Below are positions 6,588 through 36,711 of a DNA stretch of 39,972 bases, piece after piece; the stretch's first letter is position 1, and each line of letters begins with the position of its first letter. Under the pieces are notes generated by a model. That model did not search any database and had not been told where the DNA came from. It was given only the letters and a program-made list of their open reading frames with translations. The stretch is taken from assembly GCF_937919775.1 (NCBI RefSeq), contig NZ_CALFPF010000428.1, positions 1 to 39,972 on the forward strand. The letters run 5' to 3'. Made by a program: the position numbers and the translations under genes. The stretch is from an uncultured Gimesia sp. Lineage in GTDB: Bacteria > Planctomycetota > Planctomycetia > Planctomycetales > Planctomycetaceae.

Positions 6588-7484
6588 TCAGCTGTCTTGC
6601 GCCTGTGCCCACATCTGATCGAACAATTTTCGCTGTTCTGCCAGAGCAGCAACTGTATCCTGATTGGGCAGCTTCCCTTCTTCAAGCATGAGCCACCCGG
6701 TATAATTCGCACCGGCCATCAGCTCAAAGAATCGCTTATGGGGATAGGGATCATTAATCAGATCGTGAATATGAGTTGTGGCACCCAGGCGGTCTTTGAC
6801 CAGCGCAAAATTGTAATCGAGCCCCTTCCCTTCGAGATCCTGTTTGTTGCAGTTCCAGCAGATCGCAACATTCGGATGATCGGCCACGTCTAATATCTTG
6901 CGAATCGTCGGAAGATGCGCACATTTTCCGTGGACTTCCAGACGAATCTGCTGTCCCCAGTCGGCTCCATATTTCCCAACCGCATTCAGCGAACGCCCAA
7001 TCTGCTCGATCGTCTCTTCTTCCGAAACCCCTTTATGGAAGGAATCCGGTTTGACTTTGACTCCGCTGCCCCCCACATCATGACTGAGTTTGATAAAGTC
7101 TTGAGTGTCGGCAATCGCTTTCTTCAAAACAGCAGCATCGGGATTATCATAACGTTCATTACTGCCAATCCCTACCAGCGTAACAGGACTGTCAGCAAAT
7201 TGTTTCGCCACTTCGTCGCGCTGTGTTTTGCTGAGAGTTGATTCCACTCCGTGTGCGTGGGTTGTTCGTAGTTCCACCCCCAGGACATTGGCTGTTTTGC
7301 AGTTTTTCAACAAGGTCGGCAGATCCCAGTCCTTGGCCCACTGATAAGTCACCAGGCCATATTGAGCCTTGGGAGCCGGCTTTTTGTCGGCTGCGAACAG
7401 GGAACCAGACAGACCACCGCCCAAAGTCAAAGCACCACCCAGAGCGGAAGTTTTCAAAAAATCGCGGCGTGAGTAGAATACCAT
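6588..7484 (-). CDS. Tat-exported sugar phosphate isomerase/epimerase-like TIM-barrel protein
   Basis: 298 aa. The N terminus has a twin-arginine signal (YSRRDFLKTSALGG) and a hydrophobic stretch ending LFAADKK. The mature part is a xylose-isomerase-like TIM barrel (AP_endonuc_2 superfamily): 'GLVTYQW', 'VLGVELRTTHAHGVE', 'IRLEVHGKCAHL', 'VAICWNCNK' and 'GWLMLEEGK' correspond to successive strands with candidate metal ligands (Glu, His, Asn, Glu). Planctomycetes have many exported paralogues, often near sugar dehydrogenases and DUF1080 proteins, suggesting a role in periplasmic sugar conversion, but the substrate cannot be told here. It stands alone, convergent with csrA and divergent from htpG. 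Confidence 0.88.
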   Translation of the reverse strand: MVFYSRRDFLKTSALGGALTLGGGLSGSLFAADKKPAPKAQYGLVTYQWAKDWDLPTLLKNCKTANVLGVELRTTHAHGVESTLSKTQRDEVAKQFADSPVTLVGIGSNERYDNPDAAVLKKAIADTQDFIKLSHDVGGSGVKVKPDSFHKGVSEEETIEQIGRSLNAVGKYGADWGQQIRLEVHGKCAHLPTIRKILDVADHPNVAICWNCNKQDLEGKGLDYNFALVKDRLGATTHIHDLINDPYPHKRFFELMAGANYTGWLMLEEGKLPNQDTVAALAEQRKLFDQMWAQAQDS

Positions 7485-14306: not shown

Positions 14307-14429
14307 GTAGGGGCGGACCCATGTGTCCGCCCACAGGCGCAGGGAAGACGATGGAATTTGTATTTGACGGTTGACGGAAGTGTTGGATTCATCTGGATGG
14401 CAATGTTGCATACCAGATTCGCCCCCTAC
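14307..14429. repeat. Degenerate or partial third REPIN-like copy
   Basis: The left palindrome (GTAGGGGCGGACCCATGTGTCCGCCC) is intact at 14307, again exactly 162 bases on. The middle is unrelated to the other copies, but the sequence ends in CGCCCCCTAC at 14420-14429, matching the right terminus of copy 1. This right end overlaps the stop codon of the DUF1501 gene on the minus strand. Whether it is a true decayed copy or chance is uncertain. Confidence 0.5.
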
Positions 14430-15895
14430 GCCAATAGTCGTTCGACGACGTTTCCCGAAACGTCGGTCAGTCGGAAATCGCGGCCCTGGAAGCGGTAGGT
14501 TAGTTTTTCGTGGTCGAGGCCGAACAGGTGCAGGATGGTGGCGTGCAGGTCGTGGACGTGGACCGGGTCTTTGGTGACGCCCCAGCCGATCTCGTCTGTT
14601 TCGCCGATGACCTGTCCCCCTTTGATGCCGCCGCCTGCGAGCCACATGCTGAAGGAATACGGATGATGGTCGCGACCCGTGACTGTCTTGAAGTTGGCGC
14701 GGTTTTCTCCCAACGGCGTCCGTCCGAATTCGCCTCCCCAGACGACCAGTGTTTCATCAAGCAAACCACGTCGTTTGAGATCTTTCAGCAGAGCCGCGAT
14801 CGGTTGGTCGGAGATTTTTGTGTAACGGTTCAAGCCGCTGTCCAGCGAACTGTGGTGGTCCCAGGTCGATAAAAACAAAGTCACGAACCGCACGCCGCGT
14901 TCGACCATGCGTCGCGCCAGTAAACAGTTTCGGGCGTACGAACCTTGAAAACCGGACTCATTACTCTTTGAGGCTTCTTCGCGCGTGACCCCGTATTCTT
15001 CCAGCGTTGCTTTGGTTTCGCCCGACAGATCCAGCAGTTCCGGTGCCGTCTGCTGCATGCGGAAGGCGAGTTCGTAGGCTTTGATTCTGCTGGCAATTTC
15101 CGGGTTGCCAATCTGGTCAAAACGCAGGCCGTTCAATTCGTTGATGGTCTGCAGGCTGCGCATCTGTGCCGCCTCTGAGATTTCCGGCGGGTTGGCCAGG
15201 TTCAACACCGGACTTCCCTGATTGCGAAACAGCGTGCCCGCGTATTGCGACGGCAGAAAACCGCTCGACCAGCTGGAGGCCCCGCCCGGCAAGCCGCGTC
15301 CCAAAGTCGCAAGTACCACGTAACCGGGTAAATTCTGCGATTCGCTGCCTAAACCATAATTGAGCCACGAACCCAGTGTCGGTCGTCCCTGCAGATCCGA
15401 ACCGCTGAGCATCATGAGCTGGCCGGGCAGGTGGTTGAACTGTTCACAGTGCATCGAGCGAATCAGAGCGATGTCATCCACACACGTACTGAGGTGCGGC
15501 AGCAGGTCAGACAGTTCCATGCCACACTCGCCGTAACGTTTGAATGTGCGCGGGCTCCCCATCAGCCGGGCCGCCTCTTTCTGGATGAAGGCGAACTTAA
15601 TGTCTTTCAGTAACGACTCGGGCATCGGCTGGCCGTCGAGTTCGTTCAACTTTGGTTTGGGATCGAACAAATCCATCTGACTCGGCCCCCCTTCCATGAA
15701 GAGATAAATACAACGTTTCGCACGCGGTGCGATGTGTGCCAGTTGCTGAGGCACTTCGCCGGCGAGTAAGCCATTGTCTTTCATCAGCGCCGCGAGAGCG
15801 ACGGTTCCCAGACCGCTGGCACCGGTGGCAAAAAACCGCCGCCGATTCAGTGTCGCCAATGGATTCATTTCGTTGTTAAGGGAAGGAGGCAGCAT
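14426..15895 (-). CDS. DUF1501 family protein (sulfatase-superfamily-like, Tat-exported)
   Basis: 489 aa. The N terminus carries a twin-arginine signal ([15 protein letters not shown]) followed by a hydrophobic stretch. An alternative start at the ATG 9 codons in (15868, [13 protein letters not shown]) would give a more usual Tat leader. Family features present: '[18 protein letters not shown]' near residue 70, 'WDHHSS' around 345, '[16 protein letters not shown]', '[21 protein letters not shown]' and the closing '[13 protein letters not shown]'. DUF1501 proteins share the alkaline-phosphatase/sulfatase fold; their substrate is not established. It starts 2 bases after the stop of the DUF1549/DUF1553 cytochrome gene, the usual planctomycete pairing, so the two are cotranscribed. 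Its TAG stop lies in a sequence matching the end of the neighbouring repeat. Confidence 0.92.
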
Positions 15896-24863: not shown

Positions 24864-25319
24864 TTACGTTTCCGGCGGGGCTTTCGGTTGTTTGATCTTC
24901 CACCAGACGACCATCAGCGAAGGAAAGTCATCCCCCTTCACCATTCCCTCCACGACAATCAACTGATCCCCTCTCAACCGGTAGACGCACGGCTGCACGG
25001 TCTGTGACTTGAAACCTTTTTTCGCGCCTTCCAAAACCTCTAACTCATAATATATGAGCAACTTTAAATCATCGACCCGCTGCAGACGATACTTTGCCTG
25101 CTGTGCATGAACCAGTTTGCCGTTTCTGTCATAAACGTTGACCTTTGATATTTTCTGGTCTAACTCCTGCTCGATTCTGACCGGCGCCCCTTTTCCATCC
25201 TGAATGTTCCGCATCCATTTCCCTTCCACCAGTGAATAATCTTCTTCCGGAGCGGGTTCTGCAGAAAATGCGGTCGTGCCCCAAACCAGAACCATGATGA
25301 ATAGAATCACCTGTTTCAT
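24864..25319 (-). CDS. Small secreted protein, lipocalin-like (possible TIGR03067-type)
   Basis: 151 aa with a Sec signal (MKQVILFIMVLVWGTTAFSA, cut before EP). The mature protein is mainly beta-strand: 'LVEGKWMRNIQDGKG' at the start, then alternating strands to 'YRLRGDQLIVVEGM'. The opening 'G-x-W' followed by strands resembles the planctomycete TIGR03067 family, but the match is loose. A good ribosome site (AGGGAGAG) lies just before the ATG. It converges on the S1/P1 nuclease gene with 20 bases between them. No catalytic residues are seen. Confidence 0.72.
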   Translation of the reverse strand: MKQVILFIMVLVWGTTAFSAEPAPEEDYSLVEGKWMRNIQDGKGAPVRIEQELDQKISKVNVYDRNGKLVHAQQAKYRLQRVDDLKLLIYYELEVLEGAKKGFKSQTVQPCVYRLRGDQLIVVEGMVKGDDFPSLMVVWWKIKQPKAPPET

Positions 25320-26079: not shown

Positions 26080-28392
26080 TCACCCTGAATTCATCTGCTG
26101 CAGAATCCGCACGGTATCGCGGGCTGCTTTATTTGGTTTGAGCGCAGTAGCAGCGATGCCGGAAACCACTCTGGTGATATTGTGATCGACCTGACCGGGT
26201 TGAAGCCACACCGATCCGGGGGGTGAGGTCATATAAACTGAGAATGTATGATGTCCCGTGCCCGGGCGTTCGCCGATGATGTGCAGAATCGCGCGGTTAC
26301 CCGAGAGACCGCCAAAGAGTAATTCGCCGATCCGATACCCCGCGCGGACCCGTCCCGACTGCACGACGATATTTCGTTCCGCCGAAGCATAACCGGTCGC
26401 CTGCAACTGCTGCCTGAGTTCTGTGAGAAACGGTTCCAGATGACCTTCATCCATAATCGACAGCGCATTCAAACCATCGGAGATCACGATTTGCACATTG
26501 AACTGTTCCGCATAACCGTGGCGCAACTGGCGAATTTTTTCTGCGGAGGTTTGTGAAAGCTGTTCGCCGGAAGTCGGATGCAGAATGTATTCGAGCCGAT
26601 CGGTGGATCGGGTCATGACAGGCACAACCCCCGGCACATGGGAGACGAACTCGGGAGTCAGCTGAGCCCAGATGCTTTTTTTCGCGTCCTGATAAATCTG
26701 GTCGATTTCGATTTTCAGCGCAGGTTCCAGCTCTGAAGGTTTTTGTCCATACCCTTCCGCGATAAACACGCCCCGATTACGCACTTCGGCTAACTGCTGG
26801 CGACCGGCGTGGAGAATGGCCTCGTCACTCCGCATATCCCCTTTCTTGCGTCGATACTGCAGATATACCCAGTTAGGGTCGCCAAAGTGTTTTGTCGGCG
26901 CACCGTTCTCGTCGATCACCGCCAGCATCTGAAAGAAGGACCACATCTGGTCGTTCACACGAGTGCCAAACTTCTCGCGAATGCGGACATGATCCTGAAA
27001 TCCGGTCGTCAGATAACCGAGCATCGGGTCGATCTTGGTCGGTAGCGCCATCAGGTAGGCGGGATTGGCCGGCATGATCTGATCCAGACACCAGTCTAAA
27101 TCGTCCAGCGAAACGTCCATGTGCAGGGTCGAACAGACATCCAGGCCAATCGTCAGGCCGTGCAGTTTGCCCATCACGATGTCTTCCAGACAGCAGCGGA
27201 CCAGTTGTTCGCGCGTCCGAAAAACTTCCGGCCCGATAAAGCCGGCGACATCGTTCAGATGCACCCAGGGGGCAGGCGTTTTACCGGCGGCCTGTTGTGC
27301 TGCGGCGACTTCGTGCGTCAATACACGGGCGAAACCGTACTTACGCGACTCGTGCAGAACCATGTCAAAACCATGACTGTGCCCATTGGTGAAGTCGGCC
27401 CCCTGCCCGGTTTCGAAGTACAAAGCATATTGTCCCGTGCGCGAACGGGCATAATCACGCATTTTTTTGAGGCTGATGTCAAACGTTTTGTTCGCGTCAT
27501 CACTGCCCGCGATACTTTGAAACCAGAGTGCCGTACTGCCGGGGCTCTGGCGTTCCACTTCCGCCTGCACATCAATATGCGACAGCACACAGTGGGGCAT
27601 GATGTCTTGAATTCCAAACGTCACCAGCAGATCGCGAAGTACCAGTTCCACCGCCCGTACCGACTCAGGCTCGCTGGAAACCGGATTCGTCCCGAGTACC
27701 ACATCGCCCACCGCATAAGACCAGCCGTCGAGGACCTGCCAGAAGATGTCGTCCAGGTTGTCGGTCGGCGAATTGGGTTGAATGCGTGCGCCCAGATAAC
27801 CCCGGGCCCCGATGCGGCTGCCCGGCAGTGTATTGAATATCTTGGAACCGACGGCGATCAGTTCCCGCTGACTCATCAACTTGACCACACAGCCGATCAC
27901 ATCGCTGGAGAGCCCTTGAGAGACCTGTTTAATCGTGGCTTCATTTTTTGTCAGCAGCAGTTGTTTTAATTCACCGAGAGTCAGGTTCGAGGAATGTGCC
28001 GTTGCATCAGGCGACTGCCCCTCGACGATCAATTGATGCAGTTCGTCCTCAAAGACGGGATGGGCATTCAGGTCTGAAATCCGGGTTCGCTCGATCAGCG
28101 TCCGCGCGTGACTCCGGGATGTTTCATCCACGGCTGCGACGCCGATGATCTGATCCCCCTCTTTGAACTCATTTGCCGCACCGAGTAGTTGACGATAAAG
28201 CTGTGGATCGAAATCCCCCTTCACGCGGCGAATGTACCCAAAGAGGTCTTCGCCGTCACGAACCTCAGTAATCGAAATACCAGCCCCGTTAGTTTCGTCG
28301 GCAGTCACTCTTTTTGCCTGAGCCAGCGAAAGCGTCAGGGCAAAAGGGCCGCCCAGCATCGCCTGCACGAAATCACGTCGGTTCAACTGCAT
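26080..28392 (-). CDS. eutBC: EutB-EutC fusion: ethanolamine ammonia-lyase with Tat-like signal
   Basis: 770 aa from ATG 28392. The GTG at 28443 gives 787 aa but buries the leader. Residues 1-30 look like a twin-arginine signal (NRRDFVQAMLGGPFALTLSLAQA). The EutB domain (about 65-550) keeps the active-site residues expected from E. coli EutB: Arg/Gln in 'GARIQPN' (203/205), Asn236 in 'GTNPV', Glu327 in 'YFETGQG', Phe385 in 'GFIGPE' and Asp418 in 'GLDVC'. The EutC domain (about 585-765) has 'QIVISDGLNA' and 'GERPGTGHH', both family hallmarks. EAL is normally two polypeptides and, with adenosylcobalamin, converts ethanolamine to acetaldehyde and ammonia. Here both are in one chain, apparently exported folded. 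It is divergent from a GntR/FCD regulator. No eutA reactivase, permease or shell proteins are adjacent. The domain calls are firm; the export is inferred. Confidence 0.93.
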   Translation of the reverse strand: MQLNRRDFVQAMLGGPFALTLSLAQAKRVTADETNGAGISITEVRDGEDLFGYIRRVKGDFDPQLYRQLLGAANEFKEGDQIIGVAAVDETSRSHARTLIERTRISDLNAHPVFEDELHQLIVEGQSPDATAHSSNLTLGELKQLLLTKNEATIKQVSQGLSSDVIGCVVKLMSQRELIAVGSKIFNTLPGSRIGARGYLGARIQPNSPTDNLDDIFWQVLDGWSYAVGDVVLGTNPVSSEPESVRAVELVLRDLLVTFGIQDIMPHCVLSHIDVQAEVERQSPGSTALWFQSIAGSDDANKTFDISLKKMRDYARSRTGQYALYFETGQGADFTNGHSHGFDMVLHESRKYGFARVLTHEVAAAQQAAGKTPAPWVHLNDVAGFIGPEVFRTREQLVRCCLEDIVMGKLHGLTIGLDVCSTLHMDVSLDDLDWCLDQIMPANPAYLMALPTKIDPMLGYLTTGFQDHVRIREKFGTRVNDQMWSFFQMLAVIDENGAPTKHFGDPNWVYLQYRRKKGDMRSDEAILHAGRQQLAEVRNRGVFIAEGYGQKPSELEPALKIEIDQIYQDAKKSIWAQLTPEFVSHVPGVVPVMTRSTDRLEYILHPTSGEQLSQTSAEKIRQLRHGYAEQFNVQIVISDGLNALSIMDEGHLEPFLTELRQQLQATGYASAERNIVVQSGRVRAGYRIGELLFGGLSGNRAILHIIGERPGTGHHTFSVYMTSPPGSVWLQPGQVDHNITRVVSGIAATALKPNKAARDTVRILQQMNSG

Positions 28393-28486
28393 GGTCTCGC
28401 ATCCTGTCTGAAAACCTTCGAACCTTGAATGCAGAGACAGCACTCCCTGATTCGCAATGTATTAAATCGTTCAACTGCATTTATTG

Positions 28487-28619: not shown

Positions 28620-28680
28620 TGAGGTTGGCTGAAAAGCCGTCCTAATTAAATTCCATTCTTTTCAACAATTCACGTTGGCC

Positions 28681-29388
28681 ATGACTTCAATGAATACTTC
28701 CGCCCCGCTTTCGCCTTATCGTTTAAATGTCGGATCACTCAGGCTGGATATCTTCAGTCAGATACTACTGTCTATTTTTACAGGTGGGTATCCGGCGGGA
28801 ACGCGTTTAAAAGTACAACATCTGGCGGATCATTTTGGAGTGAGCAGTACTCCAGTCCGGGAAGCGATTGTGGAATTGACGGGAATCGGTGTCGTCGAAT
28901 TATTCCCCAACCGGGGAGCGGTTGTCGCCCCTCTGGGAATTCCCGAAATTCGCGAAATCTATCACATCCGCAGAATCCTGGAAGTGGAGTCGGCACGCTG
29001 TGCCTGCGATTGCCCGGACCTGAAACTGCTCGAACAACTCGCTACTGAAACGAAAGTGCTGCAGCAGGCCAGCCGCGACGAAAACTGGAGTGTACTCTGT
29101 TCTGACATTGATAGAAGAACACACATCGCCATTGTCGAGGCATCCGGCATTTCCCGGCTGAAAGCGGAACTGAATCGTTACGATCGTCTGATGCATATGA
29201 TCAGAGTGTTGTTAAAAGACTGGGGACCATACACGGACCAAATTCTTACGGAACATGTAGAGATTTTGGAAGCTTTGATCCATCGAGATCAAGACGCAGC
29301 GGGAAATGCAATGTCGCGTCATCTGGAAGCAACCTGCAACCGTGCCATCGAAGGTGTTTTTATCCATGGTCTCCCCGAGTCGCCATGA
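28681..29388 (+). CDS. GntR family transcriptional regulator, FCD (FadR-C) domain
   Basis: About 235 aa. The track's start is TTG 28675; ATG 28681 or ATG 28690 is more likely. The N-terminal winged helix-turn-helix (about 20-85) shows 'GGYPAGTRLKVQHLADHFGVSSTPVREAIVEL', the standard GntR recognition region. The C-terminal FCD domain (about 95-225) has the three His positions that bind a metal in this family: 'RRTHIAIVEASG', 'TEHVEILEAL' and 'MSRHLEAT'. Such regulators respond to organic-acid or amine-type effectors and usually repress adjacent genes. It is divergent from eutBC with 288 bases between starts, so control of eutBC and of itself is likely but not shown. Confidence 0.92.
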   Translation: MTSMNTSAPLSPYRLNVGSLRLDIFSQILLSIFTGGYPAGTRLKVQHLADHFGVSSTPVREAIVELTGIGVVELFPNRGAVVAPLGIPEIREIYHIRRILEVESARCACDCPDLKLLEQLATETKVLQQASRDENWSVLCSDIDRRTHIAIVEASGISRLKAELNRYDRLMHMIRVLLKDWGPYTDQILTEHVEILEALIHRDQDAAGNAMSRHLEATCNRAIEGVFIHGLPESP

Positions 29389-33959: not shown

Positions 33960-35276
33960 ATGACTGCAAACTGTAATCTGCCACCATCGACGACAAGATT
34001 TTCCCGCCGCCGTTTTCTGCGCGGTGCAGGAGTCACGCTGGCCCTGCCACTACTGGAATGCATGACTCAGAAGTCAATCACTGCATCGGGCGAAAACAGG
34101 CAGCCGCGACGGATGCTGCTCATTTCAAACAACCTGGGTGTCCTGCCAAAACCATTTTTCCCTGAAACGACGGGAGCCAAATATCAGCTCTCACCCTACC
34201 TGCAGGAACTCAAAGAGTTTTCGAACGATTTCACAGTCTTCAGCGGACTTTCGCATCCGTCCTGTGAAGGGGGGCACTCCACCGAAAACTGCTTTCTGAC
34301 CGGAGCCAGACATCCCACGAGTAGCGGCTTCCGCAATACGATTTCTCTCGATCAGTTTGCTTCGGAACATCTCGGCCGGCAAACCCGTTTCGGTACGCTG
34401 AATTTCGGCGTTAATATCGACAAGGCAAACCGCAGCCTGTCCTGGACCCGCGACGGTGTGCTTCTGCCAACCGAAGACAGTCCGGCCAGCATCTTCAAAA
34501 AAATGTTCATCCAGGGGAGTGAAACCAGGATCGAACAGCGGCTGCATCAGCTCAAACGGCGCGGCAGTATTCTGGACGCCGTCGCGGAATCGACTCAGCA
34601 GCTCAACCGAAATCTGGGACGCAATGATCGGGCACGTCTGGACCAGTATTTTACATCGATACGTGAACTCGAACAGCGACTGGTGACCGCCGGCGAGTGG
34701 GAACAGAGTCCGAAACCGAAAACCGACCGGGAACTCCCGCAGGATATCGTGGACCGGGCGCTGCTGTTCGAAAAGTTCGAGCAGATGCTCACCATGGCCA
34801 CACTGGCGCTGCAATCGGATTCTACCCGGATTGTCACGCTGATGGTGGATGCGTTTGCAACCCCCGTCTTTCAATTGCAGGACACAGAAAAAAGCTTGAC
34901 CGGCTACCATTCGCTCAGCCATCACGGCATGCGGGCCGACCATCTGGCGCAACTGGAAAAAGCAGACCGCCGTCAGATGTCGCTGTTACGAAAGTCACTG
35001 CAAATTCTGGCGAGCGTGCCAGACGAATCGAGTCGTCTGCTCGACAGTACGATGGTCCTGTATGGCAGCAACATGGGGGACGCCAATACGCACGACAACA
35101 CCAACCTGCCAATTCTACTGGCTGGCGGCGGCTTCCGGCACGGCCAGCACCTGGCCTTCAATCGCGAAAGCAATCCCCCGCTCTGTAACCTGTATGTCAG
35201 TATGCTGCAGCGACTGGGTATCGAAGCCGACCGTTTTGGTTCCAGTACGGGAACACTGGCCGGGCTCAAGACTTGA
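33960..35276 (+). CDS. DUF1552 family protein (Tat-exported)
   Basis: 438 aa. The N terminus has a clear twin-arginine signal (TRFSRRRFLRGAGVTLALPLLE, about 12-33). DUF1552 features include 'RMLLISNNLGVLPKPFFPE', 'FTVFSGLSHPSCEGGHS', 'SLDQFASEHLG' and the C-terminal 'MVLYGSNMGDANTHDNTNLPILLAGG'. The last resembles the end of DUF1501 proteins and suggests the alkaline-phosphatase/sulfatase-like fold. The partner of DUF1592 cytochromes across planctomycetes and related phyla; reaction unknown. It is probably cotranscribed with the upstream cytochrome gene and converges on the second DUF1501 gene, with 16 bases between stops. Confidence 0.93.
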   Translation: MTANCNLPPSTTRFSRRRFLRGAGVTLALPLLECMTQKSITASGENRQPRRMLLISNNLGVLPKPFFPETTGAKYQLSPYLQELKEFSNDFTVFSGLSHPSCEGGHSTENCFLTGARHPTSSGFRNTISLDQFASEHLGRQTRFGTLNFGVNIDKANRSLSWTRDGVLLPTEDSPASIFKKMFIQGSETRIEQRLHQLKRRGSILDAVAESTQQLNRNLGRNDRARLDQYFTSIRELEQRLVTAGEWEQSPKPKTDRELPQDIVDRALLFEKFEQMLTMATLALQSDSTRIVTLMVDAFATPVFQLQDTEKSLTGYHSLSHHGMRADHLAQLEKADRRQMSLLRKSLQILASVPDESSRLLDSTMVLYGSNMGDANTHDNTNLPILLAGGGFRHGQHLAFNRESNPPLCNLYVSMLQRLGIEADRFGSSTGTLAGLKT

Positions 35277-35292
35277 ACCAGCATGAATCGTG

Positions 35293-36711
35293 TCAGGCAA
35301 GAATCTCATGCACCACATGACCGTGCACGTCAGTCAAACGGCGATCAATGCCAGCCGTGCGATAAGTCAGACGCTGGTGGTCGATGCCCAGCAGATGTAA
35401 AATGGTCGCGTGCAGATCATAACAATAGGTCTTGCCTTCTGCGGTCTGGTATCCAAGCTCATCACTTTTCCCATAACTGGCGCCCGCTTTGACTCCTGCC
35501 CCCGCCAGCCAGGTGACAAAGGTGCCTCGGTTGTGATCACGTCCCAGACTTCCCTGCGCGAACGGTGTCCGACCGAATTCAGTCGTCCAGACAACGAGCG
35601 TGTCCTCGATCAGACCACGCGATTTCAGGTCCCGAAATAGTGCCGCAATCGGCTGGTCGACATTTGCTGCAATAGGAGGCAATTCGGTTTGAATATTGCC
35701 GTGATTGTCCCAGTTGTTGACCGCGCCTTGAGGACCACTCCAGACCTGAACGAAACGCGTCCCCCGTTCCAGCAGACGCCGCGCCAGTAATGCACGCCTG
35801 CCAAAATCTTCCGTCACTTTCTGATCCAGCCCATAAGCTGTGTGGGTTTCTTTCGACTCCCGTGTGAGATCGAAGGCTTCGGGCGCACTCAATTGCATTT
35901 TTGCCGCGAGTTCCCCCGCAGCGATTCGCGCTTCGAGACGCGTATCATCGGGACGCGGGGCCGCATGTTGTCGATTCAACTGCTGCAATAGCGCGAAGGT
36001 GTCTTTGTCGGCTTTTTCCCGCGCGAACGCATACTGGGAATCGGCAAACAGGTTGGGGATCGGCGTCTTGCTGGTCGCATTGACCAGGGTTCCCTGATGT
36101 TTGGCCGGCAGAAATCCGCAGCTGAAATTTCCTTTCTGGTTGTAAGGAAGACCGCGCGTATCCGGTAGCACTACAAATGTCGGTAGATTATCCGCAAGAT
36201 TACCCAGTGCATAAGAGATCCAGGCCCCCATACAGGGAAACCCGGGCAGCATAAAGCCGGTATTCATCATATAACTGGCGGGACCATGCACGTTGGTCTT
36301 GGTCGTCATCGCCATCAGAAACGCCAGTTCGTCCACGATCTTCGCCTGATGCGGAAAAACCGTGCTGACCCAGCGGCCGGTTTCACCATGCTGAGCAAAT
36401 TCGAACGGACTTTTCATCACCGCACCGGCTGCGGCAGTGAAACCTTCGGGTTTTTCTTTGGGCCCCAGCATCTGACCATGCAGTCGCACCAGTTCCGGTT
36501 TATAGTCGAACGTGTCCATCGGGCTCGCGCCGCCGTTCATAAACAACTGAATGACTCGTTTCGCCTTCGCCGGATGATGCAAGCCGCCGTTCAGGTTGGA
36601 AACAGGTGCTGCCGTCACTTCCTGCCCCAGCCACGAGGCGAGTACCGCCGCGCCAAAGCTGCCTCCCGAATGAGTCAGAAGTTCGCGTCGTGAAATTGGT
36701 AGGTTCAACAT
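35293..36711 (-). CDS. DUF1501 family protein (second copy, Tat-exported)
   Basis: 472 aa. The start has a twin-arginine-like motif (LPISRRELLTHSGGSFG) and a short hydrophobic stretch. It shares the same marker segments as the DUF1501 gene at 14.4 kb: 'QLFMNGGASPMDTFDYKPEL', 'NWDNHGN', 'LVVWTTEFGRTPFAQG', 'GRDHNRGTFVTWLAGAGVKAG' and the closing '[19 protein letters not shown]'. The two are clearly paralogous but well diverged, so not a recent duplication. It lies 20 bases after the stop of the DUF1549/DUF1553 gene in the same direction, with an AGAGGGCAAGGGG ribosome region, so it is the last gene of the IclR-cytochrome-DUF1501 operon. Substrate unknown. Confidence 0.93.
   Translation of the reverse strand: MLNLPISRRELLTHSGGSFGAAVLASWLGQEVTAAPVSNLNGGLHHPAKAKRVIQLFMNGGASPMDTFDYKPELVRLHGQMLGPKEKPEGFTAAAGAVMKSPFEFAQHGETGRWVSTVFPHQAKIVDELAFLMAMTTKTNVHGPASYMMNTGFMLPGFPCMGAWISYALGNLADNLPTFVVLPDTRGLPYNQKGNFSCGFLPAKHQGTLVNATSKTPIPNLFADSQYAFAREKADKDTFALLQQLNRQHAAPRPDDTRLEARIAAGELAAKMQLSAPEAFDLTRESKETHTAYGLDQKVTEDFGRRALLARRLLERGTRFVQVWSGPQGAVNNWDNHGNIQTELPPIAANVDQPIAALFRDLKSRGLIEDTLVVWTTEFGRTPFAQGSLGRDHNRGTFVTWLAGAGVKAGASYGKSDELGYQTAEGKTYCYDLHATILHLLGIDHQRLTYRTAGIDRRLTDVHGHVVHEILA

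Follow-up and report, generated by a model that had tools for sequence, protein, structure and literature searches.

We describe here a broad clade of single-chain ethanolamine ammonia-lyases (EALs) in which an export leader is conserved; the EutB-EutC fusion alone is known. The gene that we analyzed lies in a stretch of 39,972 nucleotides (hereafter the window), contig 428 of an uncultured Gimesia sp. (Planctomycetota). It likely encodes an AdoCbl-dependent, single-polypeptide EAL that is translocated, with Tat as the probable route in this organism, and that deaminates ethanolamine in the planctomycete periplasm (paryphoplasm). We infer export of the window protein, catalysis outside the cytoplasm and the physiological role from sequences, and the family as a whole carries most of the argument.

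The earlier note on this DNA had described one open frame encoding a EutB domain followed directly by a EutC domain. This frame is present on the minus strand and extends over either 26080-28443 from a GTG start (787 aa) or 26080-28392 from an ATG start. We prefer the ATG at 28392 as the more probable start because AGGA precedes it, with the GTG at 28443 as the alternative; the product from the ATG has 770 aa and the N terminus MQLNRRDFV. The features are:

26080-28392, minus strand: single-chain EutB-EutC ethanolamine ammonia-lyase gene, putatively exported (open frame, Pfam and NCBIfam matches, AGGA 5' of the ATG)
28315-28392, minus strand: putative twin-arginine leader MQLNRRDFVQAMLGGPFALTLSLAQA (sequence, homologue leaders, weak Pfam TAT_signal match)
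26890-28197, minus strand: EutB domain PF06751 (Pfam, aligned substrate residues, fold match to 3abo chain A)
26743-26889, minus strand: linker of about 49 residues joining EutB to EutC (gap between the Pfam matches)
26089-26742, minus strand: EutC domain PF05985 (Pfam, conserved motifs, fold match to 3abo chain B)

Both domains are well supported by profile searches. Pfam EutB matches residues 83-518 (E=1.1e-137, 459.9 bits against a gathering threshold of 25) and Pfam EutC residues 568-785 (E=2.4e-33, 115.9 bits against 25.8), and all 51 aligned relatives match both families, EutC at E<=0.001. The single uninterrupted chain and the intact EutB active site, both described in the earlier note, are borne out, as is the match of the second part to PF05985 on which that note had made the fusion depend. 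Equivalents of R160, Q162, N193, E287 and D362, which we take to be the substrate-binding active-site positions of E. coli EutB according to the 3ABO work, are found by alignment in the window protein and in 63/63 full-length fused homologues. F329 is likewise invariant in 63/63 aligned fused members, and the EutC motifs SDGL, GRV and GERPG are kept in nearly all members. At the level of subfamilies, the NCBIfam EutB model was passed (602 vs 554 bits), and the EutC equivalog NF003971 was matched below its curated cut-off (90 vs 230 bits); the EutC part is therefore divergent and is not filed as that equivalog.

An AlphaFold2 model of the protein without its leader, computed with 51 aligned sequences as input, reached a mean pLDDT of 91.5 and a pTM of 0.89. 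The linker is partly helical and well predicted, and the high pTM suggests that the EutB and EutC domains are held in a defined mutual arrangement. The top matches among solved structures were the large chain (3abo_A, TM 0.89) and the small chain (3abo_B, TM 0.70) of E. coli EAL, by target length. These were followed by the diol and glycerol dehydratases, which are B12-dependent cousins of EAL.

A sequencing artefact as the source of the fusion, the objection that resequencing might reveal two separate frames, is ruled out by the identical single-frame layout in dozens of independent genomes; the frame is single in all homologues. According to a profile search, the fusion is the sole EutB in its own genome, which comprises 5.76 Mb (6.6-8.3 Mb in genomes of the same genus). 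The closest named relative in our DNA scan, at 80% protein identity, is from another uncultured Gimesia.

The N terminus of the window protein conforms to the Tat-substrate pattern of R-R-x-[F/L], a moderately hydrophobic stretch and A-x-A (NRRDFV...SLAQA), and the leader MQLNRRDFVQAMLGGPFALTLSLAQA is likely cleaved after A-Q-A. Pfam TAT_signal matches the window protein weakly and below the cut-off (E=0.18, 12.3 bits vs 22.7); it is the family that carries the argument for export. TatC was found in 43/43 genomes examined. Taken together with the homologues, the sequence indicates that the window protein is probably exported, here by Tat.

The clade, counted with the deep relative L173, has 86 members that are complete and not identical to one another, and 83 of these carry an export leader, 69 of them Tat-type and 14 Sec-type. 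The remaining three are L082 and L086, which fall inside the clade, and L173. The same motif rule detected a leader in 0/53 separate-chain EutB proteins and in 0/7 other fused EutBC proteins. This rule, which is our own, calls a leader Tat-type if R-R or R-K precedes a hydrophobic stretch, and Sec-type if the stretch is strongly hydrophobic and lacks such a motif; four calls were corrected by hand (L008 and L014 to Tat, L164 and L171 to Sec). Since the rule also flags 14% of the neighbouring unannotated frames in the same loci as Tat-like, single cases prove little and it is the contrast between groups that counts. Among 73 leaders, Tat-signal profiles matched 18 (Pfam) and 14 (NCBIfam) at E<=1, and TAT_signal was the commonest family apart from the EAL families themselves. 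Further RR-leader frames are present in the window at 6588-7484 (minus strand), 14426-15895 (minus), 33960-35276 (plus) and 35293-36711 (minus), among them, by eye, a DUF1501-like and a sugar-isomerase-like protein; RR-type leaders are usual in planctomycetes.

Leader sequences are otherwise poorly conserved across the family. In about a dozen members, mostly from Bacteroidota, the hydrophobic stretch is followed by a lipobox-like cysteine, and in the Desulfobacterota Tat-type and Sec-type leaders occur side by side. The switching of signal type while export is kept, together with the lipobox cysteines, argues that export itself is under selection. The export leader proposed in the earlier note thus proves to be a conserved trait, RR-type or otherwise. 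Its further proposal that the enzyme is exported folded and loaded with cobalamin through Tat does not hold as a general rule, because the 14 Sec-type relatives would cross the membrane unfolded.

A DNA scan of one genome per species recovered 66 loci with the fused protein in Planctomycetota, Bacteroidota, Acidobacteriota, Aminicenantes, Riflebacteria, Desulfobacterota and rhizobia; its patterns were taken from the query, and it is hence biased towards close relatives. In family searches, which are free of that bias, 21 of 294 planctomycete genomes contained EutB, as separate chains in 7 (about 670-720 bits) and fused in 14 (about 430-460 bits). There were 7 separate and 2 fused EutB proteins in 346 Bacteroidota genomes, nearly exclusively separate chains in 199 Hyphomicrobiales genomes, and both forms in 297 Desulfobacterota genomes. 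The trait is thus not confined to planctomycetes; the exported fusion also occurs in Bacteroidota, Acidobacteriota, Desulfobacterota, Riflebacteria and rhizobia.

In a tree of the EutB part, the exported form constitutes one strongly supported clade, and export requires two changes, a single gain and, in the pair L082/L086, a single loss. Signal type, with absence counted as a state, requires four. Fusion arose at least twice, once within the canonical family and once on the stem shared by the exported clade and the leaderless fused group that is its sister (L078, L081, L092 and L093). The former event is represented by L155, L156 and L157 from Desulfobacterota, independent leaderless fusions of about 705 aa that lie near canonical EutB. 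The branch to the exported clade is very long (5.1 changes per site in one tree, 1.9 plus 2.0 in another), and for this reason the exact point at which the clade joins is unsure. The deep leaderless fused relative L173 is encoded at L174:6104-8272, and its genome contains a Sec-type member as well.

Proteins that accompany the cytosolic form are missing from genomes with the exported form. EutA, the ATP-driven reactivase of EAL, was detected (E<1e-49) in exactly four genomes, all of which have a leaderless fusion of the sister type (L092, L093, L095 and L096); in L093 and L095 it is encoded directly upstream of the fused gene. The Eat permease (TIGR00908) exceeded its cut-off in five genomes, each time adjoining a separate-chain EutB, and in none with the exported form, one Rhizobium with the exported form having a match in two pieces (227 and 134 bits). 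Where the exported form was the only EAL of a genome, EutA and the Eat permease were both absent; in the window's own genome the best matches were 19.6 bits for EutA and 84 bits for Eat, against a cut-off of 381.75. These absences alone are not diagnostic because planctomycete genomes with separate-chain EutB also lack EutA and mostly lack Eat. No BMC shell genes were recognized by eye among the frames of the window.

Outside the Desulfobacterota, no conserved operon partner common to all members was found. Within that phylum, an aldehyde:ferredoxin oxidoreductase gene adjoins 7 of the 13 Sec-type EAL genes (L175, L036, L183, L186, L178, L182 and L181), and a gene for a porin-like protein is near 6 of the 13. 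We infer from its lack of a leader that this oxidoreductase is cytosolic, and its position fits an aldehyde (acetaldehyde) that would be made outside and oxidized inside. At L180:10622-11416 the EAL gene is followed by a gene for a conserved protein of some 265 aa that has no Pfam match, with homologues in L183, L177, L175, L094 and L036. At seven loci, neither a cobalamin riboswitch nor any other RNA element was found around the gene. In the window, a GntR/FadR-type regulator (by eye) is encoded at 28675-29388 on the plus strand, divergent from the EAL gene; it was rejected as a dedicated EAL regulator, as it was not found next to EAL at the other Gimesia loci. A 151-aa protein with a Sec-like leader is encoded downstream of the EAL gene (24864-25319, minus strand) and is found near EAL in other Gimesia loci too.

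An adenosyltransferase is present in nearly all genomes tested, and in Gimesia it is of the PduO type; CobS was not found in Gimesia genomes, nor was a BtuR-type enzyme in the three tested. Based on the presence of the adenosyltransferase and the absence of CobS, Gimesia probably imports cobamides and adenosylates them in the cytosol. A Tat-exported EAL could then be loaded with its cobamide in the cytosol, by analogy with reductive dehalogenases. In Sec-type relatives, which would cross the membrane unfolded, loading could not precede export.

As relatives in many phyla keep an export signal, the reaction probably proceeds beyond the inner membrane. The enzyme would be carried through this membrane, with Tat as the probable route here, and would act on ethanolamine in the periplasm (paryphoplasm), releasing acetaldehyde and ammonia there. 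Acetaldehyde and ammonia cross membranes without a permease, so an ethanolamine importer would be unnecessary, and the acetaldehyde would then be oxidized by cytosolic enzymes. The fusion would hold both halves together in one exported chain. Cofactor would be loaded before export in Tat-type members and taken up outside in Sec-type members. A broader reading, which we advance tentatively and rate slightly below even, is that the B12 radical enzymes of a widely distributed clade are permanently extracytoplasmic, crossing folded by Tat or unfolded by Sec depending on the lineage, the latter taking up periplasmic adenosylcobalamin, and operating with no reactivase. Coenzyme that is inactivated outside the cytoplasm could not be replaced, because neither EutA nor ATP is available there, which counts against the proposed explanation.

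It is unlikely that the leader is unused, with the enzyme cytosolic and the RR motif and hydrophobic stretch a chance or vestigial N-terminal extension. The sub-threshold Tat match of the window protein and the two leaderless members inside the clade would agree with this, but 83/86 members in several phyla retain leaders although their sequence is poorly conserved. Moreover, the clade shows Sec-type replacements and added lipobox cysteines, neither of which occurs in leaderless relatives of the enzyme, and EutA and the Eat permease, the partners of the cytosolic form, are missing.

Export would also be compatible with other functions. We regard it as improbable that the protein is a EutBC-like enzyme for another vicinal amino alcohol and not a true EAL. 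The very long branch that separates the exported clade and the EutC score under the equivalog cut-off point in that direction, against which stand the five substrate residues and F329, invariant in 63/63 members; the aldehyde oxidoreductase neighbour fits an aldehyde product, though it does not indicate which aldehyde. A non-catalytic exported cobamide-binding protein, for example in vitamin B12 scavenging, is very improbable indeed. Gimesia has an adenosyltransferase but no CobS and so probably imports cobamides, and a BtuC-like ABC cassette lies near one Sec-type relative (L180); however, mere binding does not require the catalytic substrate pocket, which is invariant in 63/63 members. We therefore favour an exported, catalytically active EAL.

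Ethanolamine breakdown is taught as a cytosolic or microcompartment-enclosed process, the compartment containing toxic acetaldehyde, and EAL normally consists of two distinct chains within the cell. An exported EAL, if confirmed, would place the reaction where membrane-derived ethanolamine is released, sparing an importer, and would leave a radical B12 enzyme out of reach of the ATP and EutA that could renew its coenzyme. This raises the question of how AdoCbl is loaded and maintained in a periplasmic enzyme, and whether Tat- and Sec-exported relatives differ in this respect. Genomes annotated with 'EutB' may accordingly differ in physiology. We found no report of an exported, periplasmic or twin-arginine EAL in an open-access library, and a term search of a 2018 review on the use of ethanolamine gave no fused enzyme and no exported one.

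Compared with E. coli EutBC (PDB 3ABO), the window protein has the same two domains and fold and shares all five substrate residues as well as the EutC motifs, but it is one chain instead of two, is about 32% identical in the EutB part, carries an export leader and comes without EutA and the Eat permease. The fusion itself was rejected as a novelty because it was published in 2012 for Pelobacter carbinolicus, in which the large and small subunits are fused in eutBC1 and eutBC2 (Pcar_0491 and Pcar_0467; PMC3543383). According to the section of that paper on these genes, the cluster has no eutA gene and includes an aldehyde:ferredoxin oxidoreductase, and this section mentions no leader or export (PMC3543383). 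By this published description, the P. carbinolicus proteins resemble the exported form in the single-chain fusion, the lack of eutA and the clustered aldehyde:ferredoxin oxidoreductase. The leaderless fused EutBC proteins (L092, L093, L095 and L096) are also single-chain fusions and form the sister group in the tree, but they have no leader and their genomes encode EutA. Reductive dehalogenases (RdhA) are cobamide enzymes with an RR leader that are transported pre-folded to the periplasm by Tat (PMC6095959). Although RdhA differs in its unrelated chemistry, in having no adenosyl radical and in its RdhB membrane anchor, it shares with the Tat-type EAL described here the combination of a cobamide enzyme and an RR leader.
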